A stretch of DNA of 64,000 nucleotides from Echinococcus granulosus (taxonomy: Eukaryota > Platyhelminthes > Cestoda > Cyclophyllidea > Taeniidae): NCBI RefSeq assembly GCF_000524195.1, contig NW_020170463.1:305200-369199 (forward strand). Reading direction: 5' to 3'. The stretch's first letter is position 1. Each line of letters starts with the position of its first letter. The notes beneath the pieces are model-generated. The model ran no database searches. It worked only from the letters and a program-made list of their open reading frames with translations, and was not told the DNA's origin. The translations under genes and the position numbers were made by a program. Shown in pieces: positions 33,301 to 64,000 of the stretch.

Positions 33301-36300
33301 AACCCTTTTAGCCGCCATTAGCAAACCATTATTCTGTAACCAACTTGGTCATATTTATTTCTGTGGGTACGACTCAAAAGTGGACTAGAGAAAATAAAAA
33401 ATGATTGTAAAATTACCTGCAAATGTCGACCAATTGATCAAGTTCAGAGCAGGAACAATTGTACAGATGACGGCAGGACTCGTGACTCGCGTTCATCAGC
33501 TCGCCTAGCTTTCGGAGAGTTTCTTTATTGGCATCTTCATCCCCTTCTTCAACCTCATCCCTTTTACACAGGTCTTTAAAGTCCAGAACTCGTTGAGCCT
33601 CCGAATAACAGTGCCTCGCGCACCTAGCAGGAGCATTTTCCGCTGTCAGAAACAAAAACCACATTTTTAAAAAAAATTTTGAATTTGAATGCGCATACCT
33701 AACTCAGCACTCACTGCGGTGAATAGAGGAGTAAAATCTTATCCTTTGTGGTGCAAATATGTTTACGTGGAGGCAATTTAGAGGGCAAGAACAAGAAGTT
33801 GAAAAACGAGATGTGGTTCACATTGTTTATGTTGTGATATATGTCGTGACAAATAAAGATGAGATTAAAACACAATCCCATGGAGGACATAAGGAGAAGA
33901 TGTGGAGCTTAAAAAAACCTGTGGCTTTATTTTGTCTAATACCCGTTTTGACCTTGATCCCCGGGGATCCATGACCTTCCACATAAGTAACAAGGTCTTC
34001 TAGCAAAAAAAAGGAAGGAGTTAACTCCTCGTATCCTCCTGTTTTCACGGGATTTAAGACCTAAAATTTATTGAAAAGCACAAGGCTATTTTGTACCTAC
34101 TTTGGTGCCACCCTGCGCAATTAATAATTGATACCGCGTCTTGTAACATGCCTAAAATTCGGGTGGTCACAATTGTTGCTATGGTGAAATAAAACTTGGT
34201 CAAATTCTCCAAACTGCACTTTAGACAGCTAAACAATAAAACCATGGGCAGCCGAAAGCAAGCTTAAGTCTAAATTTTGCACCCCACCGCCTTTTTGTGA
34301 AGTAATATATCACCCGGTGAAATGCGATACAGTACATCGCCACTTCGCCCGGTTTATGAAACTCACTATTAATTACTTTATGAATTTCTCATCTTTCACT
34401 TTTTGAGGCGGAAATGCTACGCAGCAGTGAAAACAAGGCATCTTCGCACATTGAAGGAATTCTACTAGATAGGTGTAGGGCAGTACATTGTGATCGACCC
34501 ATCCCCTATCGGTTCGTCCACTCGTGTCTACCTCTTATTTGTCGGCCACTTTTAAGAAAATTTGAGAATCAATGTAGAGTGGAATTATAGTTTATCTCCC
34601 TTTATCGAATTTGAAACAACCTTGGAGACAAATGCATGGGGTGAGATTAATCACCATCCGTATAAATGAATACCGCGATGAATCCGACATGACCTTTTTT
34701 CTGTACAAAATTTCTCCAGCCCCACCCGATGAACAGCAGTAGGCAAAGTAGAGAATTTGGAAGAATGTAGAAATGCTAACGATAATTATGCTGATTCATT
34801 GCAAGTAATGGGGAAAAAATTTGTCTGAAAGTAAATAAAAGGAAACAAGGTTTGATTAAAGAGCCTAGTCAGCCCTCGTTGGCATTACCGACTTGGCTCA
34901 GAGGCTTGCCTTCTTGAAATAAACACCATGGAAGTCTATCAGCCTCTTCAACTCGTCCACCTCTTACCACCTCCGTTGATGTCAATCTATCTCGCCTCAA
35001 CAGCGATTCTATTATTTGTTGATACCCACTACTTGGAGAAAGGTGAGGGTGAGAATGCCTACCCTCAAGGGCAGATGTGGTGTTATGAAGTGTCTAGAAT
35101 TCGTAAAAGCAGCACCGATGGAGTCAATAGTCATGCTTGTTTCTCAAGAAGTAGATGACAATGTGCACGTGGAATCCCATTGTCTCGGCAGTTCAACATG
35201 ATGAGTAAGAGGTCCTCCTAAACATCCTGCTTCTCTTTATTAGTGTTGGATTGTTAACGCTACATTGTGTAATTTGGTCTGATAACACAATACTGCACCT
35301 TTCTGAAGTCTTCTGTAAAACATCTGCAGTGCTGTAACCGATTCCACTGCAGATTACCTCCAATCACACGAGTCAGGCTCGTTTAGACCGCATGACAGTA
35401 AGGGGAGATAACAAAGATCACTGTAAAACACTTAGGGTTGACAGACCGACACACATCTATCCGTGATTTGTGGTTCGTCCACATAAACAAATGGCATGAA
35501 TTTGAAGGTGTCTACAGATTTCAAGATATCATTGCCGTAAAATAAACTAAGTACCACACAAAATTTTTGTGACCATTTGATGAATTTATTTTATAGCGTT
35601 TCGGTGAGATGATATTCGTTTGGAGGTACATTCGCCGAAGCAGCCTCTAGTTTCCATAGGATCTGTTACAATTTAGGTGCTATGATTATCCATCCATCCA
35701 GTATCCATCCAGTATCCATCCAGTATCCATCCAGTATCCATCCATCCATCCATCCATCCATCCATCCATCCATCCATCCATCCATCCATCCATCCATCCA
35801 TCCATCCATCCATCCANNNNNNNNNNNNNNNNNNNNNNNNNNNNNNNNNNNNNNNNNNNNNNNNNNNNNNNNNNNNNNNNNNNNNNNNNNNNNNNNNNNN
35901 NNNNNNNNNNNNNNNNTATCCATCCATCCATCTTTTTCTGCATGCGAAGAAATGAGATGGCCTAAACATCTTACCGAGTTTCCCTGGGAAGGCCTCCTCT
36001 ATCGGTGAACCGGGACCAAGCATTTGACCAGGCTGAGCTTTACCGTATGCTTTTTGTACATCACCGAGAATCAAGAGTTCTTCATCCATATCTGGTTTAT
36101 TCCTAAGGTGCTTGTGTAGGATCTGCAAAGTAAGAAAATTGGGTGTTTATTTAGTCCATATTTACTACCCTTAACTAAAGAGTTTCTGCCCGAAACTTGA
36201 ATACTTGCGTGATTACTTATTTAAACATTTAAGAATAAAATTTCCTACTTCCCATAGCAACACTAAATAACCTTGCATTATATTGTCAAATAATATAACC

Positions 36301-39300
36301 AGGAGAGAGAGCTTTGACAGCAGAGGTACTTTGGCAGCCTGCTTGCACTGTGACACCCGACTATTGTAGTCTGGTGTGGTGGCCTTGTTTAGACGAGCTC
36401 CAGAGTCGGCAACGCAGAAGACGCCACCTTTTGGTATTCTCACAGGGGTTATTGTAAGGGTTGGCTTTGTAAATTCTATCATGATTGGCTAAAACATCGA
36501 AGACCAAGTAGCCTTACCACGTGGGGATAAGACTAGTAACTACATGGACTCTGTCACCTCTGTGAGGACCTGGCTTCTCTTTGCGTTAACGGACAACCAC
36601 CTTTCATTGTTACAAGTGTTGTTTTGTCTTCCCAATCCCATCCACACCATTATCTGAAATCGCGCTTCAATTTTTTGAGCAAAATATCTTGTAGGATGAA
36701 TCAGTGTTTTAAAACCCCCAAGTAAAATAAGGAAAAAAGTAACTGCTGTGACAGAATGTAAAAAATCTGCACTGTTTTTGCTTTGACAGAATTATATTTG
36801 TTTGTGATGCGATTAACCAAGTGAACTTTATAGCACTTACAGTTTTCGATCATCACCTTAAAGCTATGCCATTCCATTCGTGTTAATAGTTCGCCAGCTT
36901 TTCACTCCACCCTTCTGCACTTGAAAAATACAATTTATGCACCAGCTATCCTGAAGTAACCAAATTTGATCAAGTACTCATTTGGAAACACATGAATAGT
37001 CATAACTTTTTAGGTAAATGTCAAATTTGTGGGAACACAAAAACGATTCAATCAAAGACATTTACCGATGAATGGGAGAGAAGACAAGCTGCTTGATCCA
37101 TGCCACCACCTTGGGTTCCGATGAGACGTTCGCAATTCGCACAGATGTCGGCTAACACCCTCTAGCGCGACAAAACATCACCAACAAAAAAAAGGTAACG
37201 ATTTTGCGTCAGGAGATAAGCCAAAATTATTCATACACTGCACGCGACTTAGTCACGATTTCAGCATTTTGCGGATTTTTTGGCACACCTAACACAGGCG
37301 TAAACTAAGAATCCCTAAAAAATACACGCTGAACGGAGCATACTACTTAATAAGTTAAGGTAGGGGGTTTTCAAATTACATAAAATTTTATTACCTACTT
37401 AAAATGTCCAGTTCGACGCAAAATTTGTTAACCATTTAGGCCCTAGTAAGCTGATTCTTCTAAAGAAGGTGGTTTAAACATTTTAATCTTTTTAGGGTTA
37501 TTTTACTAGACAACCAGGCAGAGGTATTCACTTTTGCTCGCCACGATGAATCTCTGCTACTTGGGAATGCATACGATGGTCTTCACGAATACATTATAAA
37601 GAATAATTAGATAAGGATAAGTTTTTTAGTACAGCAAGCTTTTTATGTGGTCTCCATCACAGTAGAGGGCTAACTACCCTACACATCCCGATACAATCTG
37701 AGAATGTACAGGATCCACTTTTTAAAAGTACACAAGTCTGGTAAGTCCATCTAACATAAGTCATTCTCCTATTCTTGCAAGACATTAGGGCATAAGATCA
37801 CACATTATCATGATGGTGAGAGGAGTAGCCCTCTAGAATGTGAGGAGGGTAGATGCTGCCTACCTCTCCCCTCCTCATTCCTCTGATTTCCTTACTCCAA
37901 GTGATGGTTATCATCTTTTTCCTTCCAGCCTTAGACGATCGCATAACCATATGCAAAGTAGGATATAACGTTAGGAACTGTGAGGTGAAAAAAATAGAAG
38001 TGACCAAGGCTGACTATTCCTACTACTTTTCTACTCATCATATCTTCCCATTGTCCAATCATCTGTGCACAGTAAGTTAACGTAGTACGAGGGCCTAATT
38101 GCTGATTCAGAAGACAATTTATTACATCTACGTATTTCTTACTTGTGTCAGTGAGAATTACTTATTCACCGGCTTTGCTTAAAGGAGGCAGCTTACCGGT
38201 TCAACATACGTGTGTGTGGCACGCATTACGGCCATGGCTGAGGCGACTACAAGGGCACTACTGCTCGAGAGACCAGCATTCATTGGTAGATAAGCTGGAT
38301 CATTTCCATTTCCAACCAGTAAGCATATTGAAGGAGGAGTCCACTTCTGAATAGAGGATATGAAACTATAGGAGTGGGGATTTATTAACTGAAACGATTA
38401 AATAAATACCATAATCAAATTGGTGGCTTTAAAAGCACGGCATAAATATTGTAAAACTTCTACGCAAACGATTTTTATATGTAGCACTTTGATTGTTCGG
38501 TTGATTGTTAATTTTGGTAATGGGACGCTCAGAGGTCCCACCATTTTGCCTCCGCTGGAGAGCTATGCCATCGGGCCGGAAGCCCTGGATGTTTCTCCTA
38601 CAGCAGCGACCACGTTTTGATGGCTGACGTAGGAGGCTGACCACGGGAAGTCCTGCAAATGACGCTTAAGAGAAGAGAAGGGCTATGTTTGACGCTCGGT
38701 TTTGGTGACGGGGCACTTAAGTGCTTCACCATTGTCTTCACTATGCGGCCTATCCTTCGGGCCATGCTAGTAGCCCCCAATTTTATCTGCATGTCAACAA
38801 CACATCTTCTGCCCCAGTGTTATGCCTTAAAAAAGTCTTGCAGGGCTGCATTATATTCCATCTTTTCTCTTATACGTAAGTCATTGACATGGTTGTCTTA
38901 GCCTCTCATCAGTCACCAATGTTTCCAACCCACCCACTGATAGCAGAAACACTTCGTCCGACTACAATTGTCGCTCAAATAGAATTTGGACTTCACTCCT
39001 TGTCGGTGTGCCATAAAAAGGATTGCCACTATAATAGCAGATATTAATGTCTTTCAAAGCCAGTCGGGGACTTCATGTTTCGCCAGCTTTCCACAGAAAG
39101 GAATGCCACTATGGAGGTAATAAGTGTCCCATTGCACACTAACAGTTGGCACCCATGTGGTGGGTCGGTCTAGACCACATTCAATTAATCAAGGCGACCG
39201 AAAACAAATAATTATGGGTGAGTGCAGGCAGCAGCATACGGTTTTCTGGGATTGAAGACAAAACTAGGACCCCTGGATATCAACCAGCTCCTTCAGAATA

Positions 39301-41391
39301 ATTTGGCCAAAATGAAGCGTTGCCATGGCATTCTCAGATGCATAGGAATGAGTTTTTTGACTCCTGTTGCTAGGGTAGTCATTCCATGTGAGCAACACCT
39401 GAATTTAGACATCCAATGGTACAAAAGTCAAATTATTCTCCAGGAACATTTGAAATTTCAAATAAGTCAACCCTTGCTGGTTATCAAGACAGTTCTCCTC
39501 TTAAAGACAAGGGAATACTTTCGGCGTGTAGCTATTCAAAGTAAAATTTTGCCTGTAACTCACAGAAAAGTGCTGTTTTGCGTAGTCTCTGAATCCCCGA
39601 ATGCCACACAAGGCGTAGTGATACCATTTAAGGGGACGTGGAGGACCATTGCTGGCGAAATTCAACACGCTCTCTATATCACCCTCGTATTCACTAAAAA
39701 AGGCGCTATTACTGAGTGCGAAACAAAAAGTCATTTTTGAAATAAAGACTTACTCAAGTGTTTTGTTTTCTGAGATAATTTTGATTCTCTCCTGGCCGAT
39801 TTCTAGCTGGCTAGATACTGCAATGTAGACTGCTTGCCGTAGGGCCATTGGAAGCACAGCATAGCCGCTATAGTCGATATGTTCGCCTAAAGTGGGATAA
39901 AAATCCCTACGAGATTGGCCTCCTCAACCTTCCAATCATTCGGTCAATTCCAAGGCAGGTAAGACATGAACTTTCTAGAAGGTGTGGTTATGAGAGGGGA
40001 ATATTTTGAAATATTAAAGAACAAATGCTAACTGCTGCAACATAAACGTTAGGGAGCAGCTGCTTCATAATCCTTTTTATCCACCTCATTTATTATCACG
40101 AAGTTAAAACCTTTGATCCATAAAGATACCTAAATAAGCGTTTTGACCTTTGAAAGAAGAAGCTAATCACTTGAAGCAATAAAATCTTTTCGTATCAAAG
40201 GATAAACTCATTGCCTGGCCCTGCGCGGTCCGTGAAAGTGTGCTTAAAATGACATCAAAAGTCTACAAGCATCAGTTTGCTGCTCTCCATTCCTTTCCTC
40301 ACCAACTGACCGCGTGACCGTCTTTTGACGCGAAAAGTCCTCCAGCTTTCATTACTTCGTCCCTACGATTGCCTTCTCTTGTGCTTTTGTGATGCACAGA
40401 CTGGTTCTCTTGCTAAAGGATAAAAGGCTACATGAAGGTGCTCAAGAATGGCGAATATGCCAACGTTGCTCTCACAGGACATGGTGAGGCAGGACCACAT
40501 GGCTCATGTCGCAGACCTTAGAGAGAAGACGCTTCTCACTTGAGCACAGGGATGAGAGAGGGAAGGAGGTGCTGACTTTCCCTTTTCCTCGTGATCCCCT
40601 AGTGCTAATTCGTGTTCGTCTCATAGATCAAGCAGGGAGAAAACAAATGGATCTCTCAATATCTGCAAACGTAGTTACAACCGACACATGGCAAGCACGC
40701 GTCACACATTTGTGACATCGTATTAAGATGCGTCACATATATGTGACGCCGATACTCAGAATGCAAAAGTTGTGCAATTTTGTTTTATTAAGTAATTATC
40801 GGTAAATATTTACTTTTATCACATACCTATTAGGTTTACGCGACCTGGAGCCCTTACAACAAATTCACAGTGGTGTACTTCAGGACATCTAGCCACCAAG
40901 AGAGCACTCAGCCTTCTGGTTGTTTCATCCTCATCAAAACTGCCATATTTTGCCTACAAATAAATGATAACATCAAAACAGTCATGTAAAAAAAATTGTG
41001 GTTACTGTCAAATTACAAGAGAGGCAGTTGGGAAGGGAGGAGCAAATAAAATATGGAAGCAACCTTCAAATTTTAGGGCAATGCATCAAAATGAAAAGCA
41101 AGATTTGAGGGAATTTTTATCATTTTACTACACAGAAGGATGACAAAGTGAAACAACTTGCAGGCCAACAGCAAAAGCAGTAGAGAGCGCGTACCATCAT
41201 TGCGACGACTTGTGTTACATGTGAGTCAGTCTGTTTATCTTGATCACAAACGATGTGACTCTTTGATGTGTTTATGTGTGAAAGCTGACATTGATTGGCC
41301 AATGGCGCTAAGGTACAGTCTAATCAAACTTCGACCTCGGCTTTGCACAAACCGGAAGCAAGTTTACCTTTACAAATCCGGTGATAGTCAT
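30351..41391 (-). CDS. GALK2: N-acetylgalactosamine kinase (GHMP kinase family)
   Basis: The enzyme phosphorylates N-acetylgalactosamine, and galactose more weakly, with ATP in the cytosol (family knowledge). Nine exons join in phase: 40953-40827, 39886-39754, 39711-39564, 38346-38197, 37161-37066, 36488-36330, 36122-35975, 33642-33417 and 30552-30351. A small first exon, 41391-41368 (MTITGFVK, phase 0), completes about 470 residues but is uncertain. Human GALK2 has 458. All family motifs are present: the galactokinase signature [14 protein letters not shown] (45-58), the ATP-binding GLSSSSA (169-175), GGGMDQ with catalytic Asp216, and LTGAGWGGC (413-421). GALK2 rather than GALK1 is favoured by segments such as [12 protein letters not shown] near the C-terminus. 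The last intron but one contains the gapped microsatellite. The 5' seven exons are repeated in the 13,977-base second unit. Confidence 0.9.
32550..32825 (+). repeat. diverged R2-like fragments in a GALK2 intron
   Basis: Boxes CAGCCCTTCTGCAAG (about 32,610) and TTTGAGAAGGCTCGGGGC (about 32,798) recall the 3' half of R2, but the intervening sequence is poorly preserved. The assignment is tentative. Confidence 0.3.
35689..35930 (+). repeat. (CATC)n microsatellite interrupted by assembly gap
   Basis: A tetranucleotide array, first with (CCAGTATCCAT)-type variant units and then pure CATC units, runs into the gap and resumes after it for about 14 bases. Translations of this stretch (repeated Trp-Met-Asp-Gly) are not real proteins. 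It lies in the GALK2 intron between the exons at 35,975 and 33,642. Confidence 0.95.
35817..35916. other. assembly gap, 100 N
   Basis: Exactly 100 N characters, a conventional placeholder of unknown true length, placed inside the CATC array. Confidence 0.98.
38515..38855 (+). repeat. two R2 copies in a GALK2 intron
   Basis: The first copy (38,515-38,600) has GGTCCCACCATTTTGCCTCC and ATGCCATCGGGCCGGAAG. The second (38,690-38,855) has CTTCACCATTGTCTTC, CTTCGGGCCATGCTAGTAG, a GTCAACAACACATCT box and AAAAGTCTTGCAGGGCTGCA. They lie in tandem on the plus strand, opposite to GALK2, and recur in unit 2 at 52,492-52,832. Confidence 0.5.
40701..40748. repeat. paired TCACA palindromes in GALK2 intron
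   Basis: Two palindromic elements sit 14 bases apart. GTCACACATTTGTGAC (40,701-40,716) has 6-base arms. CGTCACATATATGTGACG (40,731-40,748) is a perfect 18-base palindrome. The flanks (ATCG and GATG around TATTAA) also pair. A hairpin pair or a dimeric protein-binding site is possible. The element is repeated at 54,678-54,725. Confidence 0.7.
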
Positions 41392-44300
41392 GGAACAAGT
41401 GTTTTAGCAGCACATAATTGATTACAAGAAAACGTCATTAAAAACCGTCAAATAGGTCTGCTAATAGGGATGACACGAGGGAGGAATGTCATAAAAACCA
41501 CGAAGCTGGAAAGAAGACCTTACACTATGGGTTATTTGATCCCGGTGTCAATGACGAATCCCCTTGATTGCGATAGATTCCGAATATTGTCGCACTTTTT
41601 GCAAGTTACATTATGGAAGTTCGAGAGTACTCACGGATGGTGGATGCCCTACAGCAAGCCCATTTGTTGGAGCCAATAATCCTTCCTTCAAGTGCTGTCC
41701 GACTTCCTATCTAGATTTCATTTTAACTGCAGGGAACCTAGAGGAGAGCGATTTACTTACACAATTCGTGCCCGCACTCTACCCTGTCTTCAGTAGCCTT
41801 TCTGGTGTCGGCTGCAGCAGTTTAAGCCATCCATTGAAGACGCCTTTCTTCAGCAGCCTTTAGGATGCAGCATTTGGCTACCAAAGTTGGTTTTTTCTTC
41901 TAACACAAGTGAAATCACCGCTGTCACTGGTAAAGCGTCTAAACTAGCCGCAGAGACGTATTGAGCTTTCTGTTAACAAACAGAAGGCTGGAAAGTTCTA
42001 GCAAAGGTGACACAAACACGACAATTATTTTATTCCAAGAAAAGTTTGATTTTCTCAATTTGCATTAAAGGGAGGTGTGAATAACCTTTCTCACAAGGCA
42101 GACAAGTTGCGAGCAGTTACAATTCTACCATTTTTATGATGGAAAGTATTATATCTGCGCAAAGCTAAAAACAGCCGCTCCGCTCCAGACAGATGTAAGC
42201 TGGTACACCCACTGTCTTCATAAGCAAGCAAGCAAGCAAGCTGGTCTCAGCCCTAGCTTACATTTATTTTCCAACAACCTATTCCATTTTGCATGTGTTT
42301 ATCCGCATGTCTAATGCTAGTGCCAAGAATAGACGATAGACATCGCTAGGAGAAGTAGCAACAGAGGAGGACGGAAGAAAGTGAGGAAAACGAGGATAAA
42401 TTATAGATGAAGTAGTATCTTTCCTTTTCCAATCCTTAGGGAAAAATCGTCTTAGCACCAAATTTTGATCTGCAGAAAATAATTCCAAAGTGCGGAGGTG
42501 ATACTTCATCGCCTTCTTGAGAACCACCCATGACTGTTATAGCGTAACGTGTTCAGGAGTTTTCTATTCAATCTCCACTTTCATACTTCTGAACCGAGCA
42601 GACTGGTCTGAGGGGGACATCTTTTATTTGTAAAGTACAGAGAATCTAGGTTATGGAGGTCAATGGCTTCCCCTCGGTTAGGACGGGTGGTGTGTACTGA
42701 CCGCCACTAGCCTAAAAGGTGCATTCATACATTCACAATTATTTGAAATTTTACTTTTTACTTTCATAGCTCACAATTTCCGATTTTTGGGTTTCATGTT
42801 GAGGATTTAAACGGCCATGCTGTTTTATTCCATTTTGGAGTATGCAACCCGCATTTTAAAAGTCAACTTTTTTTACGGAGGGTAAAAAGCAGCCATAAAT
42901 GCGCATCATTAGGCACATCAAAAGGCAAGATACCATGGTAGCGTAGAAATCTCAAAATTTAGGCACATTTCTAACCGACAGAGCACTTTACTCTCCCTTG
43001 ATCTCCTCATGCCTCCGGTCAGCCAGCTCACCCCTCTCACGAAGAGTAAAAGCGTCAGTAGATCCTATCTTTTATTTTTTATAAGTAATTTGATGAAGAT
43101 TAGTAGTTTGCCTTTTTTTAAAATAGGCGTTACCTCGCAGGATTCGTAAAATAGTGGCTTTAAGCCTAGAAATATTTATTTTGAATGTATTTTGTGTTAT
43201 TGACCTAGAAGCTCAACATCGTTACACCAACCTGGATGGATCAGCAAGTGTAGGCCTGTCAAAATATCGCCAATTCTTTTACCTCAGACGTTGAATATTA
43301 TAATTTAAAAGCCATTCCAAAATTTAGAAAATAAAAATGTGTACATAAATTGAGGAAAGGGGATTTTTAGGGAAATCCACCGTTCCCTATTTTTCTTTGT
43401 AATTCAGTAGAGCCATTATTTATGAAGCAATGAATTGCAGAAACAGTAGGCTAGTAAATTTATGACGTAATCAGTGGCTAACACAATAAAGGTACTTGTA
43501 AATTTCTCCCTAATTTAAAAAAAGATTTGACGAAACCTGCAACTTCTGAATTGCGTTGATAAGGACAAAAAACGGTCGGGTAAATCAAATGGCCGGACAT
43601 CGGTACATCTACGCGGCAGCATTTGACCGTTACCCAAAAAAGGAAACTGTGCAATTTGGTAAAATTGCTGTACGTTTATAAATCACTTAACATCTTGCCA
43701 TGTTTCACAGGGGAAAAAGTAAAGCAATTTATACATACAAATTTATGATTACTCGTGACAGCTTTGAACATGCGTGTAGCACTCCGGGACTTTCCTGAAG
43801 ACGAAAGAAGACTTAATACTGACCCTGAGGTCATACCGCTTAGCAGAAGTACAAAAGCAGAGCCTCAAGTGCCAGCGAAACGAAAATGCGAAGTATTACG
43901 TGGACCCCTCTCCTCTTTGACGAGTCGTCTTCGGTTCGCCGCTGAGACCACTCTGAAGACAAAAGAAGGCACAATACTATGGCATAATATTTATATTACT
44001 GTTGCAGTGACGGGTTAAGTGAACCATTGCATGGCCGGAAGGTCGTACCGCCTAGCGGAAGTGCAGAGGCGGAGCCTCAGATGTCTTAGAAATCAAAACG
44101 ATGAGGTGAACAAATAACCAAAGCATTACATATCTGTGACTCAAAACAATTTTATTCATAGTTTAGAGAAAGGAGTAACGTGTACTCTACGGTGCGCTAC
44201 TAACCAATTTGTATGCTGCCCTTCCTTCTCAATTTGTCTCCAAACTTCATTTACACTCCTAATTGACTGACTTACTATAGATAAGTGGGACAGATATCTC

Positions 44301-45848
44301 CTCTACTTTTTTATTTTGCACTTTTTAGGACTGTTTACATGTTTTCCTAAAAAAAACTGGAGAAGGTTAGTTTTGTTTCATTGACCAATTAAATGCCAGA
44401 AGAGACAATACAGAATACACAGTCAATTAAGGCTACTACTTAAACGCAGTTCAAATCCACATGCATAAAGTAACTCCAAGATGATTAGGGAAGGTGAGAG
44501 GATAAAATAACACTTGCGTTGCGTCGCCACTAACTACGCATATGCGCCTTGACGTACTCGTTCCACTTCGACAAGGTAGTAAAAGAACTAAAATTTATGA
44601 CTAGAGGCCTATTCTCGGTTAAGCAGGTATATGAAATCAGACCTTTGTAAAATTAGCCATATTTACTACTTCGGTACTTGTTTTGGGAACAGAACATGTG
44701 TTCTAAATGCGGAGGTCCTTAAATAAGACATCACGAATGTATCCGTTACCTCGGGTAGACTGTTTCTGTATCCAAATTAGCCTCTAGTCACCACCATTAA
44801 TAGGAAATGTGATCACATAATTTTTCAGTTATTCGTTTGGCCTACAAGTTCAAATGCAACTCATGCAATGACCTTTTAATTTTCTAAATCATTTTTTGCC
44901 TTGGCTAAAATGCCTGAACCTATTCCCAATGGAGCGCAGTGATTGCAGACCGCCTACTAGCAAATCATATCTGCAAGGTTAATCAAACCCCACATAAAAA
45001 CTGATGGAGATTCGCACAATCGCTTTCTTCAGCAAATACTGCTAAATCAACTTAAAGTGTTTCTCATTAATTTTCATGAGAGTTTGGTTGATTTAGACCC
45101 TAGATTGAGACCTTCTAAGTAGTATAAAACGCACACACTCGTATGCGAGCTTGAGACTCAAAAATTCGTGTTGGGGGTACATTACAGGGGACCTGTCGGG
45201 GCATCCTCATCTTGGTTCTTGCCCTCGTGTTCTCCTGCGGTCAAAAAAGTCATGTCCATGTCTCAATAGTGGTGCAGTAACAATCCAAATTTTGCAGTGA
45301 TGAGGACATTTGTCCACAAAGTAAAGGGGCACAAAAGGCACTTCACGACCATTTCGAAATTATCTTCTCCGCCTAGGGATGCACTGAGGTGGACTGATGA
45401 AAAAGAGCTTTTACATAACCATCTAATGTGATATTTTTGTACCTTGAGACTTATATGAAGTCGATAGAAGACATAAAACCTGAGCAGAATATTGTTGGCA
45501 TACGGTAGGGTTTGGGGCTATTTTCATGGTTTGGGGGTCAGCTCATCTGACGAAGGTACAATGGCGGTGAGTAAAACCAACAACCAAATATCTAGCTCTT
45601 AGCAAGTGGCCAAGCATGAATTCTGGCTGCAATTAAACCAAACTAAAAAAATCTAAAATAATTTTACTCTTCAATAAATTTGCAAACAAATCTGTGCGAG
45701 GAAGAATGAAAAGAAAAAGAGATGTTTAGTAACGCAACTAGCCAATGGCAGTGATAAGCAAAGCGACCAATCAAAATTTAATTCCCCTTTGCAGATGATG
45801 CAGAAAATTGTGCAGTAACACTGACGTGGGCACACTTTTTCCGTAGCA
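41392..45848. other. spacer between divergent GALK2 and GPCR genes
   Basis: GALK2 (minus) and the GPCR (plus) are divergently arranged about 4.5 kb apart, so this should contain both promoters. An (AAGC)5 tract lies at 42,222-42,241. Reversed R2 copies lie at 43,755-44,090. Open frames such as 42,279-42,527 (minus) have no support. The CAAT-like sites CCAATGG and CCAATCA lie at about 45,742 and 45,769, upstream of the GPCR start. Confidence 0.4.
43755..44090 (-). repeat. dispersed repeat family R2, two or three reversed copies
   Basis: Read on the minus strand, 43,990-43,930 gives TGTGCCTTCTTTTGTCTTC, as at 4,148-4,166. Position 43,870-43,760 gives the GGCTCTGC, CTTCTGCTAAGCGG and TTTCGTCTTCAG boxes. 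Position 44,090-44,020 gives GAGGCTCCGCCTCTG and CTTCCGGCCATG. The open frame on plus is a by-product. Confidence 0.55.
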
Positions 45849-50023: not shown

Positions 50024-52491
50024 ATGCTTTTTGTACATCACCGAGAATCAAGAGTTCTTCATCCATATCTGGTTTATTCCTAAGGTGCTTGTGTAGGATC
50101 TGCAAAGTAAGAAAATTGGGTGTTTATTTAGTCCATATTTACTACCCTTAACTAAAGAGTTTCTGCCCGAAACTTGAATACTTGCGTGATTACTTATTTA
50201 AACATTTAAGAATAAAATTTCCTACTTCCCATAGCAACACTAAATAACCTTGCATTATATTGTCAAATAATATAACCAGGAGAGAGAGCTTTGACAGCAG
50301 AGGTACTTTGGCAGCCTGCTTGCACTGTGACACCCGACTATTGTAGTCTGGTGTGGTGGCCTTGTTTAGACGAGCTCCAGAGTCGGCAACGCAGAAGACG
50401 CCACCTTTTGGTATTCTCACAGGGGTTATTGTAAGGGTTGGCTTTGTAAATTCTATCATGATTGGCTAAAACATCGAAGACCAAGTAGCCTTACCACGTG
50501 GGGATAAGACTAGTAACTACATGGACTCTGTCACCTCTGTGAGGACCTGGCTTCTCTTTGCGTTAACGGACAACCACCTTTCATTGTTACAAGTGTTGTT
50601 TTGTCTTCCCAATCCCATCCACACCATTATCTGAAATCGCGCTTCAATTTTTTGAGCAAAATATCTTGTAGGATGAATCAGTGTTTTAAAACCCCCAAGT
50701 AAAATAAGGAAAAAAGTAACTGCTGTGACAGAATGTAAAAAATCTGCACTGTTTTTGCTTTGACAGAATTATATTTGTTTGTGATGCGATTAACCAAGTG
50801 AACTTTATAGCACTTACAGTTTTCGATCATCACCTTAAAGCTATGCCATTCCATTCGTGTTAATAGTTCGCCAGCTTTTCACTCCACCCTTCTGCACTTG
50901 AAAAATACAATTTATGCACCAGCTATCCTGAAGTAACCAAATTTGATCAAGTACTCATTTGGAAACACATGAATAGTCATAACTTTTTAGGTAAATGTCA
51001 AATTTGTGGGAACACAAAAACGATTCAATCAAAGACATTTACCGATGAATGGGAGAGAAGACAAGCTGCTTGATCCATGCCACCACCTTGGGTTCCGATG
51101 AGACGTTCGCAATTCGCACAGATGTCGGCTAACACCCTCTAGCGCGACAAAACATCACCAACAAAAAAAAGGTAACGATTTTGCGTCAGGAGATAAGCCA
51201 AAATTATTCATACACTGCACGCGACTTAGTCACGATTTCAGCATTTTGCGGATTTTTTGGCACACCTAACACAGGCGTAAACTAAGAATCCCTAAAAAAT
51301 ACACGCTGAACGGAGCATACTACTTAATAAGTTAAGGTAGGGGGTTTTCAAATTACATAAAATTTTATTACCTACTTAAAATGTCCAGTTCGACGCAAAA
51401 TTTGTTAACCATTTAGGCCCTAGTAAGCTGATTCTTCTAAAGAAGGTGGTTTAAACATTTTAATCTTTTTAGGGTTATTTTACTAGACAACCAGGCAGAG
51501 GTATTCACTTTTGCTCGCCACGATGAATCTCTGCTACTTGGGAATGCATACGATGGTCTTCACGAATACATTATAAAGAATAATTAGATAAGGATAAGTT
51601 TTTTAGTACAGCAAGCTTTTTATGTGGTCTCCATCACAGTAGAGGGCTAACTACCCTACACATCCCGATACAATCTGAGAATGTACAGGATCCACTTTTT
51701 AAAAGTACACAAGTCTGGTAAGTCCATCTAACATAAGTCATTCTCCTATTCTTGCAAGACATTAGGGCATAAGATCACACATTATCATGATGGTGAGAGG
51801 AGTAGCCCTCTAGAATGTGAGGAGGGTAGATGCTGCCTACCTCTCCCCTCCTCATTCCTCTGATTTCCTTACTCCAAGTGATGGTTATCATCTTTTTCCT
51901 TCCAGCCTTAGACGATCGCATAACCATATGCAAAGTAGGATATAACGTTAGGAACTGTGAGGTGAAAAAAATAGAAGTGACCAAGGCTGACTATTCCTAC
52001 TACTTTTCTACTCATCATATCTTCCCATTGTCCAATCATCTGTGCACAGTAAGTTAACGTAGTACGAGGGCCTAATTGCTGATTCAGAAGACAATTTATT
52101 ACATCTACGTATTTCTTACTTGTGTCAGTGAGAATTACTTATTCACCGGCTTTGCTTAAAGGAGGCAGCTTACCGGTTCAACATACGTGTGTGTGGCACG
52201 CATTACGGCCATGGCTGAGGCGACTACAAGGGCACTACTGCTCGAGAGACCAGCATTCATTGGTAGATAAGCTGGATCATTTCCATTTCCAACCAGTAAG
52301 CATATTGAAGGAGGAGTCCACTTCTGAATAGAGGATATGAAACTATAGGAGTGGGGATTTATTAACTGAAACGATTAAATAAATACCATAATCAAATTGG
52401 TGGCTTTAAAAGCACGGCATAAATATTGTAAAACTTCTACGCAAACGATTTTTATATGTAGCACTTTGATTGTTCGGTTGATTGTTAATTT

Positions 52492-52832
52492 TGGTAATGG
52501 GACGCTCAGAGGTCCCACCATTTTGCCTCCGCTGGAGAGCTATGCCATCGGGCCGGAAGCCCTGGATGTTTCTCCTACAGCAGCGACCACGTTTTGATGG
52601 CTGACGTAGGAGGCTGACCACGGGAAGTCCTGCAAATGACGCTTAAGAGAAGAGAAGGGCTATGTTTGACGCTCGGTTTTGGTGACGGGGCACTTAAGTG
52701 CTTCACCATTGTCTTCACTATGCGGCCTATCCTTCGGGCCATGCTAGTAGCCCCCAATTTTATCTGCATGTCAACAACACATCTTCTGCCCCAGTGTTAT
52801 GCCTTAAAAAAGTCTTGCAGGGCTGCATTATA
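52492..52832 (+). repeat. two R2 copies in truncated GALK2 intron (unit 2)
   Basis: Same sequence as 38,515-38,855, carried in the second unit. Confidence 0.5.
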
Positions 52833-54677
52833 TTCCATCTTTTCTCTTATACGTAAGTCATTGACATGGTTGTCTTAGCCTCTCATCAGTCACCAATGTT
52901 TCCAACCCACCCACTGATAGCAGAAACACTTCGTCCGACTACAATTGTCGCTCAAATAGAATTTGGACTTCACTCCTTGTCGGTGTGCCATAAAAAGGAT
53001 TGCCACTATAATAGCAGATATTAATGTCTTTCAAAGCCAGTCGGGGACTTCATGTTTCGCCAGCTTTCCACAGAAAGGAATGCCACTATGGAGGTAATAA
53101 GTGTCCCATTGCACACTAACAGTTGGCACCCATGTGGTGGGTCGGTCTAGACCACATTCAATTAATCAAGGCGACCGAAAACAAATAATTATGGGTGAGT
53201 GCAGGCAGCAGCATACGGTTTTCTGGGATTGAAGACAAAACTAGGACCCCTGGATATCAACCAGCTCCTTCAGAATAATTTGGCCAAAATGAAGCGTTGC
53301 CATGGCATTCTCAGATGCATAGGAATGAGTTTTTTGACTCCTGTTGCTAGGGTAGTCATTCCATGTGAGCAACACCTGAATTTAGACATCCAATGGTACA
53401 AAAGTCAAATTATTCTCCAGGAACATTTGAAATTTCAAATAAGTCAACCCTTGCTGGTTATCAAGACAGTTCTCCTCTTAAAGACAAGGGAATACTTTCG
53501 GCGTGTAGCTATTCAAAGTAAAATTTTGCCTGTAACTCACAGAAAAGTGCTGTTTTGCGTAGTCTCTGAATCCCCGAATGCCACACAAGGCGTAGTGATA
53601 CCATTTAAGGGGACGTGGAGGACCATTGCTGGCGAAATTCAACACGCTCTCTATATCACCCTCGTATTCACTAAAAAAGGCGCTATTACTGAGTGCGAAA
53701 CAAAAAGTCATTTTTGAAATAAAGACTTACTCAAGTGTTTTGTTTTCTGAGATAATTTTGATTCTCTCCTGGCCGATTTCTAGCTGGCTAGATACTGCAA
53801 TGTAGACTGCTTGCCGTAGGGCCATTGGAAGCACAGCATAGCCGCTATAGTCGATATGTTCGCCTAAAGTGGGATAAAAATCCCTACGAGATTGGCCTCC
53901 TCAACCTTCCAATCATTCGGTCAATTCCAAGGCAGGTAAGACATGAACTTTCTAGAAGGTGTGGTTATGAGAGGGGAATATTTTGAAATATTAAAGAACA
54001 AATGCTAACTGCTGCAACATAAACGTTAGGGAGCAGCTGCTTCATAATCCTTTTTATCCACCTCATTTATTATCACGAAGTTAAAACCTTTGATCCATAA
54101 AGATACCTAAATAAGCGTTTTGACCTTTGAAAGAAGAAGCTAATCACTTGAAGCAATAAAATCTTTTCGTATCAAAGGATAAACTCATTGCCTGGCCCTG
54201 CGCGGTCCGTGAAAGTGTGCTTAAAATGACATCAAAAGTCTACAAGCATCAGTTTGCTGCTCTCCATTCCTTTCCTCACCAACTGACCGCGTGACCGTCT
54301 TTTGACGCGAAAAGTCCTCCAGCTTTCATTACTTCGTCCCTACGATTGCCTTCTCTTGTGCTTTTGTGATGCACAGACTGGTTCTCTTGCTAAAGGATAA
54401 AAGGCTACATGAAGGTGCTCAAGAATGGCGAATATGCCAACGTTGCTCTCACAGGACATGGTGAGGCAGGACCACATGGCTCATGTCGCAGACCTTAGAG
54501 AGAAGACGCTTCTCACTTGAGCACAGGGATGAGAGAGGGAAGGAGGTGCTGACTTTCCCTTTTCCTCGTGATCCCCTAGTGCTAATTCGTGTTCGTCTCA
54601 TAGATCAAGCAGGGAGAAAACAAATGGATCTCTCAATATCTGCAAACGTAGTTACAACCGACACATGGCAAGCACGC

Positions 54678-54725
54678 GTCACACATTTGTGACATCGTAT
54701 TAAGATGCGTCACATATATGTGACG
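54678..54725. repeat. paired TCACA palindromes (unit 2 copy)
   Basis: Same sequence as 40,701-40,748. Confidence 0.7.
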
Positions 54726-55368
54726 CCGATACTCAGAATGCAAAAGTTGTGCAATTTTGTTTTATTAAGTAATTATCGGTAAATATTTACTTTTATCACA
54801 TACCTATTAGGTTTACGCGACCTGGAGCCCTTACAACAAATTCACAGTGGTGTACTTCAGGACATCTAGCCACCAAGAGAGCACTCAGCCTTCTGGTTGT
54901 TTCATCCTCATCAAAACTGCCATATTTTGCCTACAAATAAATGATAACATCAAAACAGTCATGTAAAAAAAATTGTGGTTACTGTCAAATTACAAGAGAG
55001 GCAGTTGGGAAGGGAGGAGCAAATAAAATATGGAAGCAACCTTCAAATTTTAGGGCAATGCATCAAAATGAAAAGCAAGATTTGAGGGAATTTTTATCAT
55101 TTTACTACACAGAAGGATGACAAAGTGAAACAACTTGCAGGCCAACAGCAAAAGCAGTAGAGAGCGCGTACCATCATTGCGACGACTTGTGTTACATGTG
55201 AGTCAGTCTGTTTATCTTGATCACAAACGATGTGACTCTTTGATGTGTTTATGTGTGAAAGCTGACATTGATTGGCCAATGGCGCTAAGGTACAGTCTAA
55301 TCAAACTTCGACCTCGGCTTTGCACAAACCGGAAGCAAGTTTACCTTTACAAATCCGGTGATAGTCAT

Positions 55369-58300
55369 GGAACAAGTGTTTTAGCAGCACATAATTGATT
55401 ACAAGAAAACGTCATTAAAAACCGTCAAATAGGTCTGCTAATAGGGATGACACGAGGGAGGAATGTCATAAAAACCACGAAGCTGGAAAGAAGACCTTAC
55501 ACTATGGGTTATTTGATCCCGGTGTCAATGACGAATCCCCTTGATTGCGATAGATTCCGAATATTGTCGCACTTTTTGCAAGTTACATTATGGAAGTTCG
55601 AGAGTACTCACGGATGGTGGATGCCCTACAGCAAGCCCATTTGTTGGAGCCAATAATCCTTCCTTCAAGTGCTGTCCGACTTCCTATCTAGATTTCATTT
55701 TAACTGCAGGGAACCTAGAGGAGAGCGATTTACTTACACAATTCGTGCCCGCACTCTACCCTGTCTTCAGTAGCCTTTCTGGTGTCGGCTGCAGCAGTTT
55801 AAGCCATCCATTGAAGACGCCTTTCTTCAGCAGCCTTTAGGATGCAGCATTTGGCTACCAAAGTTGGTTTTTTCTTCTAACACAAGTGAAATCACCGCTG
55901 TCACTGGTAAAGCGTCTAAACTAGCCGCAGAGACGTATTGAGCTTTCTGTTAACAAACAGAAGGCTGGAAAGTTCTAGCAAAGGTGACACAAACACGACA
56001 ATTATTTTATTCCAAGAAAAGTTTGATTTTCTCAATTTGCATTAAAGGGAGGTGTGAATAACCTTTCTCACAAGGCAGACAAGTTGCGAGCAGTTACAAT
56101 TCTACCATTTTTATGATGGAAAGTATTATATCTGCGCAAAGCTAAAAACAGCCGCTCCGCTCCAGACAGATGTAAGCTGGTACACCCACTGTCTTCATAA
56201 GCAAGCAAGCAAGCAAGCTGGTCTCAGCCCTAGCTTACATTTATTTTCCAACAACCTATTCCATTTTGCATGTGTTTATCCGCATGTCTAATGCTAGTGC
56301 CAAGAATAGACGATAGACATCGCTAGGAGAAGTAGCAACAGAGGAGGACGGAAGAAAGTGAGGAAAACGAGGATAAATTATAGATGAAGTAGTATCTTTC
56401 CTTTTCCAATCCTTAGGGAAAAATCGTCTTAGCACCAAATTTTGATCTGCAGAAAATAATTCCAAAGTGCGGAGGTGATACTTCATCGCCTTCTTGAGAA
56501 CCACCCATGACTGTTATAGCGTAACGTGTTCAGGAGTTTTCTATTCAATCTCCACTTTCATACTTCTGAACCGAGCAGACTGGTCTGAGGGGGACATCTT
56601 TTATTTGTAAAGTACAGAGAATCTAGGTTATGGAGGTCAATGGCTTCCCCTCGGTTAGGACGGGTGGTGTGTACTGACCGCCACTAGCCTAAAAGGTGCA
56701 TTCATACATTCACAATTATTTGAAATTTTACTTTTTACTTTCATAGCTCACAATTTCCGATTTTTGGGTTTCATGTTGAGGATTTAAACGGCCATGCTGT
56801 TTTATTCCATTTTGGAGTATGCAACCCGCATTTTAAAAGTCAACTTTTTTTACGGAGGGTAAAAAGCAGCCATAAATGCGCATCATTAGGCACATCAAAA
56901 GGCAAGATACCATGGTAGCGTAGAAATCTCAAAATTTAGGCACATTTCTAACCGACAGAGCACTTTACTCTCCCTTGATCTCCTCATGCCTCCGGTCAGC
57001 CAGCTCACCCCTCTCACGAAGAGTAAAAGCGTCAGTAGATCCTATCTTTTATTTTTTATAAGTAATTTGATGAAGATTAGTAGTTTGCCTTTTTTTAAAA
57101 TAGGCGTTACCTCGCAGGATTCGTAAAATAGTGGCTTTAAGCCTAGAAATATTTATTTTGAATGTATTTTGTGTTATTGACCTAGAAGCTCAACATCGTT
57201 ACACCAACCTGGATGGATCAGCAAGTGTAGGCCTGTCAAAATATCGCCAATTCTTTTACCTCAGACGTTGAATATTATAATTTAAAAGCCATTCCAAAAT
57301 TTAGAAAATAAAAATGTGTACATAAATTGAGGAAAGGGGATTTTTAGGGAAATCCACCGTTCCCTATTTTTCTTTGTAATTCAGTAGAGCCATTATTTAT
57401 GAAGCAATGAATTGCAGAAACAGTAGGCTAGTAAATTTATGACGTAATCAGTGGCTAACACAATAAAGGTACTTGTAAATTTCTCCCTAATTTAAAAAAA
57501 GATTTGACGAAACCTGCAACTTCTGAATTGCGTTGATAAGGACAAAAAACGGTCGGGTAAATCAAATGGCCGGACATCGGTACATCTACGCGGCAGCATT
57601 TGACCGTTACCCAAAAAAGGAAACTGTGCAATTTGGTAAAATTGCTGTACGTTTATAAATCACTTAACATCTTGCCATGTTTCACAGGGGAAAAAGTAAA
57701 GCAATTTATACATACAAATTTATGATTACTCGTGACAGCTTTGAACATGCGTGTAGCACTCCGGGACTTTCCTGAAGACGAAAGAAGACTTAATACTGAC
57801 CCTGAGGTCATACCGCTTAGCAGAAGTACAAAAGCAGAGCCTCAAGTGCCAGCGAAACGAAAATGCGAAGTATTACGTGGACCCCTCTCCTCTTTGACGA
57901 GTCGTCTTCGGTTCGCCGCTGAGACCACTCTGAAGACAAAAGAAGGCACAATACTATGGCATAATATTTATATTACTGTTGCAGTGACGGGTTAAGTGAA
58001 CCATTGCATGGCCGGAAGGTCGTACCGCCTAGCGGAAGTGCAGAGGCGGAGCCTCAGATGTCTTAGAAATCAAAACGATGAGGTGAACAAATAACCAAAG
58101 CATTACATATCTGTGACTCAAAACAATTTTATTCATAGTTTAGAGAAAGGAGTAACGTGTACTCTACGGTGCGCTACTAACCAATTTGTATGCTGCCCTT
58201 CCTTCTCAATTTGTCTCCAAACTTCATTTACACTCCTAATTGACTGACTTACTATAGATAAGTGGGACAGATATCTCCTCTACTTTTTTATTTTGCACTT

Positions 58301-59825
58301 TTTAGGACTGTTTACATGTTTTCCTAAAAAAAACTGGAGAAGGTTAGTTTTGTTTCATTGACCAATTAAATGCCAGAAGAGACAATACAGAATACACAGT
58401 CAATTAAGGCTACTACTTAAACGCAGTTCAAATCCACATGCATAAAGTAACTCCAAGATGATTAGGGAAGGTGAGAGGATAAAATAACACTTGCGTTGCG
58501 TCGCCACTAACTACGCATATGCGCCTTGACGTACTCGTTCCACTTCGACAAGGTAGTAAAAGAACTAAAATTTATGACTAGAGGCCTATTCTCGGTTAAG
58601 CAGGTATATGAAATCAGACCTTTGTAAAATTAGCCATATTTACTACTTCGGTACTTGTTTTGGGAACAGAACATGTGTTCTAAATGCGGAGGTCCTTAAA
58701 TAAGACATCACGAATGTATCCGTTACCTCGGGTAGACTGTTTCTGTATCCAAATTAGCCTCTAGTCACCACCATTAATAGGAAATGTGATCACATAATTT
58801 TTCAGTTATTCGTTTGGCCTACAAGTTCAAATGCAACTCATGCAATGACCTTTTAATTTTCTAAATCATTTTTTGCCTTGGCTAAAATGCCTGAACCTAT
58901 TCCCAATGGAGCGCAGTGATTGCAGACCGCCTACTAGCAAATCATATCTGCAAGGTTAATCAAACCCCACATAAAAACTGATGGAGATTCGCACAATCGC
59001 TTTCTTCAGCAAATACTGCTAAATCAACTTAAAGTGTTTCTCATTAATTTTCATGAGAGTTTGGTTGATTTAGACCCTAGATTGAGACCTTCTAAGTAGT
59101 ATAAAACGCACACACTCGTATGCGAGCTTGAGACTCAAAAATTCGTGTTGGGGGTACATTACAGGGGACCTGTCGGGGCATCCTCATCTTGGTTCTTGCC
59201 CTCGTGTTCTCCTGCGGTCAAAAAAGTCATGTCCATGTCTCAATAGTGGTGCAGTAACAATCCAAATTTTGCAGTGATGAGGACATTTGTCCACAAAGTA
59301 AAGGGGCACAAAAGGCACTTCACGACCATTTCGAAATTATCTTCTCCGCCTAGGGATGCACTGAGGTGGACTGATGAAAAAGAGCTTTTACATAACCATC
59401 TAATGTGATATTTTTGTACCTTGAGACTTATATGAAGTCGATAGAAGACATAAAACCTGAGCAGAATATTGTTGGCATACGGTAGGGTTTGGGGCTATTT
59501 TCATGGTTTGGGGGTCAGCTCATCTGACGAAGGTACAATGGCGGTGAGTAAAACCAACAACCAAATATCTAGCTCTTAGCAAGTGGCCAAGCATGAATTC
59601 TGGCTGCAATTAAACCAAACTAAAAAAATCTAAAATAATTTTACTCTTCAATAAATTTGCAAACAAATCTGTGCGAGGAAGAATGAAAAGAAAAAGAGAT
59701 GTTTAGTAACGCAACTAGCCAATGGCAGTGATAAGCAAAGCGACCAATCAAAATTTAATTCCCCTTTGCAGATGATGCAGAAAATTGTGCAGTAACACTG
59801 ACGTGGGCACACTTTTTCCGTAGCA
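55369..59825. other. spacer between truncated GALK2 and GPCR copy 2
   Basis: Duplicate of 41,392-45,848, with the (AAGC)5 tract at 56,199-56,218. Confidence 0.4.
57732..58067 (-). repeat. R2 copies, reversed (unit 2)
   Basis: Same sequence as 43,755-44,090. Confidence 0.55.
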
Positions 59826-61798
59826 ATGGATTACAACATATCCTTATCCACATCTCTCATGCCCAACTCTTCCCAATATATAAATCTCTCTGTTCGACCT
59901 GCAATCTACTACAGCCTTCCCTATCGCCTTCTTGGTACAATCGCTGCAACCCTCATTCTCATAGTCGGTCTGTCGGGCAACTTACTTGTGATCACGGTGA
60001 TTACGTGGTCCTCGAAGATGCGTAGTCCAACAAACTGCTACCTCGTATCACTTTCCTTCAGTGATATGCTCTTTCTCCTGCATGCTACAGCTCCATTTAT
60101 CTGGGAGCTCTATGTCATGATCGGACAGTGGACACTGGGCACTCACGCCTGTCGAATTATAGTTGCAATGCAATACCTCTGTGTAGACACTTCTGCTCTT
60201 TCCATGGCGGCATTTTCTGTGGAGCGTTGGGTAGCTATCTGTCACCCAATGCGCGCTCAAACCCTCTGCACCGTGAACCGAGCACTCAAAATCATCGCTG
60301 GCATTTGGATCTTCTGTGCTGCCTATAATTGCGTCTGGCTCTTTACTCTGGACACGCAAGTAGTTGAATATGTCTATGGCACCTATCGAACCTGCACCTA
60401 TAAGTTTTCGCGAATGCGATACTCCACAGTGTACCTCTTGGATTTTATCCTCTTCTACACTCTCCCTCTAGGCCTGATATTTGTCATGTATACGCAGATC
60501 ACTCTACGACTCTTCAAATTTCACAAATCCATCTGTCTAAACCTGAATAAAGGGAAATCAGAAAGCAACAGAAATGCTGTCAGAGGTGCAGGACGTGGTA
60601 GTCCCGCTCTCTGCAATTTAAATTCATTGGAACAGGCGAGACAGGCTGCTTTCTACCGAAATGGCGGTCGTCAAGTTCGTTCACGAAAACAGGTATGTGA
60701 ACCAGTTGTCGGCCCTCTAAATAATTGTCCAAAAGGGCAAATTTCCCTGGGGTGAGACAGCAAAGTTAATTGGAGCAAATTTAGGGCGGATACTTCGACA
60801 ATGCACTTAAACACACTTTGAAGTCGAAAGGTAAAAAGCCTCTGAGATTTTAGATAAGAAGGCAAATGTCTGTAAAAAGCCTGTATTTAAAAAATATAAT
60901 AGTCATTAAAATATTTTCCAGCACAATTTATCGTGCCTTTTCCTACTGAATGGATAATTGCTAATTTCAGGTTTTCCTCCTGAGGCTGCTAGAACACCAT
61001 CCCAGTCCTTTCTAAAACGCATTTAGCATAGTAGGAGTTCCCTCGCTTTTTAAATCCTGGCAAACTTGATTTTTTGAGCTTTTATGCGGTCAGTATAACC
61101 TTCATGCAAATTTCCTAACTAAAAATACTCCGTCGGCAGGGGCGGACTGGTGTGTTGAAGTAGGTCCATCACTCAATCAAAAAAGAATGCACTCTTCAAG
61201 CTATTCAGGCGATTAACAATGCCTCATTTGCATGATAAATGGAATTTATATTTTATCTAGTAGGGTAAACTTTGTTTCTCACCATTGTAACAAGAATTAC
61301 TTCCGTCATGATGGGAGCGGCATTGATCACTCTGCAAAACGGTTTGTTTTGCTACGTAACCTGTCCAGATGACGGAAATATAGAGCAGCGCTTACTGAAC
61401 TGAAACGCCTATCCAAACAGGATTGCTACTTTATACAGATGCTTAAAATTTGTTTTAAATTTTTCTAACAGGTGGTTAAAATGTTGATGGCAGTAGTCAT
61501 ACTCTTCGCTGTCTTTTGGTTTCCATACCGAACCCTGGTGGTGTATAACAGCTTTGTCACGCCAAAACGCACCGATTACTGGTTGATACTCTTCGTCAAG
61601 ACGATGGCGTATCTCAATTCCACTGTCAACCCGATACTCTACAACGCAATGTCCAAGAAGTTCCGTCGTGCTTTCCGCCTGTTAATTACACAGAGTAAGG
61701 ACATAATTTATTTAAAGCTTTCAAATTTGCCCAAACAAATAAGGCGAATAGAGGAACTCATTAGTCGGTGGAAGTCAATGAGCCTAGGTCCCCTCTGA
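59826..61798 (+). CDS. TRH-receptor-like rhodopsin-family GPCR, copy 2
   Basis: Exons 59826-60692 and 61472-61798 encode the same 397 residues as the first copy, including ERW, PYR in TM6 and NPILY in TM7. Both flanks (4.4 kb upstream and 2.2 kb downstream) are copied too, so this copy would have its own promoter and could be expressed. The intron also shows no difference where compared, which means either no time for divergence or an assembly duplicate of one locus. Confidence 0.85.
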
Positions 61799-63941
61799 AT
61801 GGGTTATAAGATGGAGCGTATTTTTAATGATTGCGTCGAATATAAAAAGGTATTCAATGCTTAAAAAAAACATTAATGAGGTCCTACAGTGATTTCCAAG
61901 TCAAGAATGTAGTTGTATGCAGGCGTCTTGGTCTAGGTCCTCAGATTTTGACAAAATTAAGTTTATCACTCTATCTTTAAGCTTCCTGCTTCGGACGACA
62001 AAGTAAGATGAACAGTGTGCTGGGCAGTCGACGCACCGAGTGCATTAGATCGCGAGATTACTTTCGTCACGTTCAACAACAGAGACACCAGCTTTCGAGG
62101 ACTGTCGCCAACTTAACTCAGGCAAATGAGTCACAAGCTCTTGCCTCCAACAACAAAAATGAAGCCCTGGCGGAGGGATGATGTCTGTCAGATAACGAAA
62201 CTGACACCCGGTTATTGTAAAAAATATGATGTAAATAACAAGAATCTGTCAAAGCTTAACGTGTTCTTTCGTCTGAGGTGATTTTACAGTGAAGGAGAGC
62301 TTCTTTCTTAGGAAAAATCCAGGCAACCCTCTCTTTTCTGCCCACCTATACATTCGTAATTGTTCTCAAAAGACAATTAAGGGTTACCTTGCACCATTAG
62401 TTAAATCTCCTTCAAATTTTACATAGCAAGTAAAAGAGAGGGTATAAGGAAGTACCTCCACTCCTTTACGGCTAGACGGGACCAAGATAGAGGTGGTCGA
62501 ATGGGAACGAAGTATAAACTAAGCTATAAGGAGAGACAGACGCAAATCCGTATTCTCACAAAGCTATTTTAAATTCCGTCCTTTATTAAGTGACTGTGCT
62601 TTTTGACCAGACTTCTTACGACTTGTGATGGGCATGCGTGATGGTCTGCAGATTCTCCCCTTCCTAATGCAGTTCCCATACCGGACGGAACTCCGCATCC
62701 AGTAGTGTTGCCGATTGCACGCGAATTCGATGTCTGTTGCGGAGGTTTGACAAAAGGGAGTGATAGGGACGGCACTCAAATAAAAGAGCCAGGTGGAGAG
62801 CCTATGCAAGACGTTAATTGTATCACTCTTGATTTCGCAACATAACTCCGGGGCTCCGATATTGGTCCTGCGAAAGGCAGCCTGTCCTCTAAGGAGACAT
62901 TAATAGCCCAAGCCCTAATATACTTCGCCAATAAATATTCTGACCTAGCATCACTTCTCCTTTTGTCTCGGGGCAAGACGAAGTGTTCATGAGCAGAAGA
63001 ATGAGCATGTAATATCACCTGTCAGAGATAAGTGAATGGAAGTTTTTATGACCAGCCATCTATTATCATCCTTTTGACGAAATTAACTGGTTAGGGGCTG
63101 TTGTTTAAACGAACCACGTTAAGACTTGCTTTATGCATTAACTTAACAACTTAATGTTAGTCTTTGGGATTTGTACTTTTGATTTGGCATAAGTAATGCC
63201 TTTAGGCCTCCCTGTTCATAATTAATGGACCTCTCAAGGCATGACCAAATACTACCTCAGAGAAGATCAGCCGCGCGCCACAGATGGAAATGACAAGCTA
63301 ACCCAGTTTAAAAAGGTGGATACAAGGACTTCTTTAGTCCACTTGTATGCCGTAACTTTACAGAAGTAAGGCATCTACTGTGGGTGCTAACGTTACCATC
63401 AGCAGACGTGGATGAGTTCAACCTTTTATTGTGTGTCTATGATACCTCCAGGAAGGGATGTGGAGTGTGCAAACAAATGCAGTCACTTTCAAACCTTCAT
63501 TGGCTGGTGGTAGCCCTAGCAAACACCTGGGGAGAGGTGACGTGATAACATAGCCGTAAGAAAGAGGAGATGTCAGCTAAAGCTCCATAGAGCTACATTA
63601 TGTATTCTGAACTTTGTACATGCTTTCCAATGAAGAGCCGCAAGCCACTATGGAGCATCATCAGTCTTGAGCTGTGCCTAATCAGTAAGCCACCTTCTCT
63701 AATACTGTTTGCATACAGGGGAGGCATAAGGAAGTAAAAGTCCAAATCTTGATCTAATTGACGAGAAGCATAACCGACGCTGGGGTCAAACGTCTCCTCA
63801 GCTGTATTAAAATTTTGAAAATGTCTAGCCCAACTTGTTGGTATATATTTGACAGAACTACCCAAGTTACTGTGACACACTCACTAGCCACTTCACACTT
63901 CTAAAACATGCATTACTTCGTCTCAACAGGCACGTGCATGC
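61799..63941. other. 3' flank of GPCR copy 2
   Basis: Duplicate of 47,822-49,964, including the R1 copy at 62,457-62,747. Nothing new is present. Confidence 0.45.
62457..62747 (+). repeat. dispersed repeat family R1, copy c (unit 2)
   Basis: Same sequence as 48,480-48,770. Confidence 0.6.
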
Positions 63942-64000
63942 TTCATGTCTGCGTACGTGAGTGTGGTGCCCTCAACTGTCGTCACGTACGCAGACACGAA
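63942..64000. repeat. 19-base inverted repeat at window end
   Basis: Second copy of the inverted repeat at 49,965-50,023. Its right arm (63,982-64,000) ends on the final base of the window. Confidence 0.9.

Follow-up and report, generated by a model that had tools for sequence, protein, structure and literature searches.

An exact 14-kb repeat closing an Echinococcus granulosus scaffold as a probable systematic false duplication of the draft assembly

The repeat and its place in the scaffold

Does a 13,977-bp head-to-tail repeat at the end of a scaffold belong to the genome of Echinococcus granulosus, or only to its deposited draft assembly? The window (the whole stretch of DNA analysed, 64,000 nucleotides) corresponds to C190:305,200-369,199. 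Since scaffold C190 is 369,199 bases long, position 64,000 is its last base, as an earlier note made from the letters alone had held probable. That note had also described two full units that start 130 bases after a 100-N gap and fill the window to position 64,000, with no indels between them and no substitutions in the stretches it had compared. Its coordinates were exact, and a position-by-position comparison of 36,047-50,023 with 50,024-64,000 gave 0 mismatches and 0 indels over 13,977 bp. In a scan of the window, this was the sole identity run of at least 50 bases at offset 13,977. The features are collected in Table 1.

The sequence 40,000-41,000, used as a query against the assembly (103,588,672 bases in 272 contigs), matched two sites only, one in each unit. 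Apart from an ATCC microsatellite, no further exact repeat of at least 60 bases was found in C190 by a scan that covered 1-200,000 (minus N stretches) and 295,200-369,199, left out C190:200,001-295,199 and skipped words occurring six or more times. The true continuation of unit 1 on its right side lies outside the window, and the native right edge is not visible there.

The longest open frame of the unit codes for the larger part of a class A GPCR (Pfam 7tm_1, E 8.7e-39) related to thyrotropin-releasing hormone (TRH) receptors. The top-scoring protein, P0001 from E. granulosus, matches 89% of the query at 99% identity, and P0005, from the same species, matches 79% at 100%. The two models (418 and 391 aa, respectively) disagree in the first segment, which matches to 46,718 in P0001 and to 46,604 in P0005. 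Close to the unit end, 49,524-49,899 is part of a dispersed repeat with relatives at C99:119212-119588 (77%) and C190:81558-81937 (72%); the last 500 bases of the unit, searched against the genome, gave two exact copies and these two diverged partial relatives.

Table 1. Features of the window, and unit lengths of the duplicated tails found on other scaffolds
Feature	Position	Strand	Basis or remark
Galactokinase-family gene, extent	30354..40953	-	tblastn, E. multilocularis P0121 vs window, eight segments
Galactokinase-family segments 1-4	40,953-40,825; 39,890-39,564; 38,346-38,197; 37,161-37,066	-	tblastn
Galactokinase-family segments 5-8	36,488-36,327; 36,125-35,970 (boundary exon); 33,643-33,416; 30,557-30,354	-	tblastn
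100-N gap within (ATCC)n microsatellite	35817..35916	.	microsatellite on both sides
Galactokinase / N-acetylgalactosamine kinase-type exon, 148 bp	35975..36122	-	spans left boundary of unit 1
Unit 1, 13,977 bp, continuous with native left flank	36047..50023	+	exact identity run; gene crossing left edge
TRH-receptor-like class A GPCR gene	45849..48201	+	segments 45,849-46,718; 47,492-47,719; 48,007-48,201; repeated at +13,977
Inverted repeat, 19-nt arms (18/19 complementary), 21-nt loop	49965..50023 and 63,942-64,000	.	ends exactly at unit end
Truncated second galactokinase-family copy	49998..54930	-	upstream segments and part of boundary exon; source of P0122
Probable false junction, unit 1 end/unit 2 start	50023..50024	.	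unit comparison; without left-side microhomology
Unit 2, exact copy of unit 1, probably false	50024..64000	+	ends on last base of scaffold; identity; recurrence at other scaffold ends
Duplicated tails, unit length (bp)			C1 3,352; C15 4,865; C60 8,112; C90 6,839; C99 7,379; C120 44,843
Duplicated tails, unit length (bp), continued			C135 25,578; C165 5,565; C228 10,617; C250 2,998; C270 5,384

A galactokinase-family gene at the unit boundaries

The left boundary of unit 1 (36,046/36,047) lies inside a minus-strand exon with splice-like ends. The peptide encoded by this exon matches the E. multilocularis N-acetylgalactosamine kinase P0121 (458 aa) with 96% identity over all 49 residues, and also matches P0122 of E. 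granulosus. In tblastn, P0121 reads straight through the boundary exon and then continues in two more segments left of the N gap. These two 3' segments are single in the window, and the 5' segments are doubled. Since the gene crosses the left edge of unit 1 into sequence that is single in the window, unit 1 with its left flank is the native arrangement. The E. multilocularis protein is informative on the nativeness of the left boundary only. That the N gap in the (ATCC)n microsatellite is a correct join is plausible.

Unit 2 cuts the same gene inside the boundary exon. P0122, a public E. granulosus protein named "Galactokinase" (271 aa; window 49,998-53,825, minus strand), ends in GDVQKAFRVCVRDDS, and the minus-strand translation across 50,024/50,023 gives exactly GDVQKAFRVCVRDDS followed by a stop. 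The stretch of P0122 that crosses the junction is QKAFRVCVRDDS plus the stop (50,033-49,995), and its last residues, FRVCVRDDS, are translated across the unit 1/unit 2 junction. In addition, residues 237-271 of P0122 align to 50,102-49,998 at 97%, while copy 1 aligns with residues 237-263 only. Since the end of P0122 matches the translated junction, this protein is a product of the unit 2 junction and a truncated false gene model. Both P0122 and the TRH-receptor-like P0005 are annotated on a public E. granulosus contig of 369,199 bases. The public P0122 carries the junction residues, so the fault sits in the deposited record, and public databases contain at least one false, truncated gene that results from it.

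Tails of other scaffolds

The ends of other scaffolds were searched for the same geometry. A sample of 20 was taken across the numbering, not at random: C99 and C228 were chosen because earlier searches had matched them, and C189 and C191, taken as numerical neighbours, were then excluded since their tails contain simple repeats. For each of the other 18 scaffolds, the final 100 bases were searched against the assembly; the tail of the window, included as a positive control, gave both of its copies. A second copy of the tail was found upstream, on the same scaffold and strand, in 11 of the 18 (9 of 16 without C99 and C228). The search with the last 100 bases gave no second copy for the other seven (C30, C45, C75, C105, C150, C180 and C210). 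For C15, the match was 94% as aligned, with the alignment overrunning the end of the piece; the 100 bases themselves are identical. Every duplicated tail matched within its own scaffold only, and the unit length, from 2,998 to 44,843 bp, is a different one in each affected scaffold. Therefore, no shared mobile element explains the doubling.

In a tandem arrangement, the offset predicts where copy 1 starts, and the bases at that point must equal those directly after copy 1. This equality was found in all 11 scaffolds: at 100 of 100 bases in 9 of 9, at 82 of 82 in C1, and throughout the unit in C250, with 0 mismatches over 2,998 bp. Full units were compared for C190 and C250, and the other ten scaffolds were compared at both unit ends. 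To the left of copy 1, the adjoining 100 bases are unlike the unit end (18 to 33 matches of 100 in nine scaffolds), and the left-side microhomology ranges from 0 to 2 bases across all twelve scaffolds. These 100 bases contain no N in any of the nine scaffolds, and none was present on that side in the 688 bases inspected in C250 or the 166 in C1. The doubled segment is a suffix of the scaffold, with no visible bounding gap in the stretches examined. The breakpoints are not independent of the scaffold ends, as the second copy stops on the last base in C190 and in the 11 others.

Scaffold starts served as a small control. From the 20 starts considered, 15 had no readable sequence, or simple repeats only, in the part examined, and the five that were searched gave no same-scaffold copy (0/5). 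The repeat scan of the parts of C190 that it covered agrees with this control. As a side observation, the first 100 bases of C99 (from C99:1-200) have a 99% copy at C100:82587-82685, which may represent either a repeat or an overlap left unmerged.

Origin of the second copy and consequences for the draft genome

With a probability of about 0.97, the 14-kb repeat reflects a systematic false duplication within the E. granulosus draft assembly as deposited, and not biology. During scaffold building or gap closing, the terminal piece of many scaffolds would have been written twice, head to tail, and each affected scaffold would thus close with a copy of its own tail. The step responsible may have been a script for gap closing or layout, which would have emitted the last contig a second time once the preceding gap had been fully or partly filled. 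To this guess we give roughly even odds; under it, the 130 bases that separate unit 1 from the N gap would be gap-fill sequence. Twelve scaffolds with different tails end in self-repeats, and no biological process known to us would link duplications with the ends of scaffolds; hence the copies most likely arose as the scaffolds were written out.

An assembly artefact had been preferred in the earlier note, in the form of a mis-joined duplicate contig. The artefact is borne out by the exact identity of the copies, by their location at the very end of the scaffold and by the recurrence at 11 of 18 other ends; the unrelated contig has to be dropped, since it is the scaffold's own tail that is repeated, here and at those other ends. 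The alternative named there, a very recent tandem duplication or a higher-copy array, found no support, given the same geometry elsewhere.

The assembly is presumably the one described in Zheng 2013 (Nat Genet; cited in PMC8894454). No report of this fault was found in the titles and abstract openings searched, a body of literature with most subscription journals outside its scope. False duplications known from other assemblies (for example PMC9516828) are alike in that extra sequence and genes exist in the assembly only, with false gene gains. The present copies differ in being perfect (in the two scaffolds fully compared), head to tail, at scaffold 3' ends and of varying unit length. These features point towards a mistake during output or gap closing and away from heterozygosity or read errors.

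A real 14-kb tandem duplication of very recent date in the sequenced strain (or a longer array), at whose branch, the unit end, the assembler stopped, would fit the head-to-tail order and the perfect identity. It could also make a breakpoint of the inverted repeat that ends exactly at the unit edge, the sole one with 19-nt arms, at most one mismatch and a loop of up to 100 nt in 1-50,023. However, no comparable inverted repeat was found in the last 100 bases of the other scaffolds (0 of 20; best, 8 of 9 nt arms), and since 11 of 18 other scaffolds end with this geometry, against 0 of 5 starts, the duplications are tied to scaffold ends. Nor would a collapsed array put a unit edge on the last base of so many unrelated scaffolds. 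This explanation is therefore considered very unlikely. That C190 alone carries a real fresh 14-kb duplication, with a second neuropeptide-receptor gene, while a systematic error coincidentally affects the other scaffolds, is extremely improbable.

Concerning the inverted repeat itself, the exact 59 bases had no match in the assembly beyond the two copies, and the 14-nt core had one other match, on C228, which by our own estimate is about the chance level. Breakage driven by the hairpin was rejected, since the other scaffold ends (0 of 20) have no such inverted repeat. The inverted repeat may be where sequencing of the contig failed or stopped; it is not needed for the duplication.

Retained haplotigs, with both alleles of a region joined in tandem, would be an instance of a known problem, the false duplications that are targeted by haplotype-aware assembly (PMC9516828). 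Nevertheless, alleles are expected to differ somewhere, and the two full comparisons, over 13,977 bp and 2,998 bp, revealed 0 differences; the second copy also stops on the last base of the scaffold in every verified case. We regard this origin as exceedingly unlikely.

Contigs assembled from circles often carry exactly repeated ends, and a circular 13,977-bp molecule (plasmid, virus or extrachromosomal circle) assembled with redundant overlap would look similar, but unit 1 starts within an exon of a nuclear gene that continues past the gap to 30,354, where it is single-copy in the window, and the pattern recurs in twelve scaffolds with different units, which leaves this possibility practically negligible. 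The mitochondrial genome, considered for its size, was ruled out by gene content. A mobile element or circle was also set aside on separate grounds: the window has no Rfam match at the gathering threshold, and the exact hairpin is confined to the two copies.

Turning from these alternatives to the false duplication of scaffold tails, its extent can be roughly estimated. The mean extra length of the 11 duplicated tails is about 11.4 kb. On the assumption that the scaffolds tested are representative, spurious tail copies would be present on about 166 of the 272 and add about 1.9 Mb (1.8% of 103.6 Mb); these figures are an extrapolation and not a count. PMC8894454 lists two earlier E. granulosus drafts, of 110.8 Mb (957 scaffolds, N50 of 0.71 Mb) and 114.5 Mb (N50 of 5.2 Mb), and indicates that the draft of this parasite of humans and livestock has been used for comparison in later studies.

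Genes located in the tails appear doubled or as truncated chimaeras, as was seen for one galactokinase-family protein. The fault would inflate gene and paralogue counts, and it would split read mapping in expression studies. The value of the finding is that of a data-quality warning for the E. granulosus draft, and not of a biological feature of the parasite.
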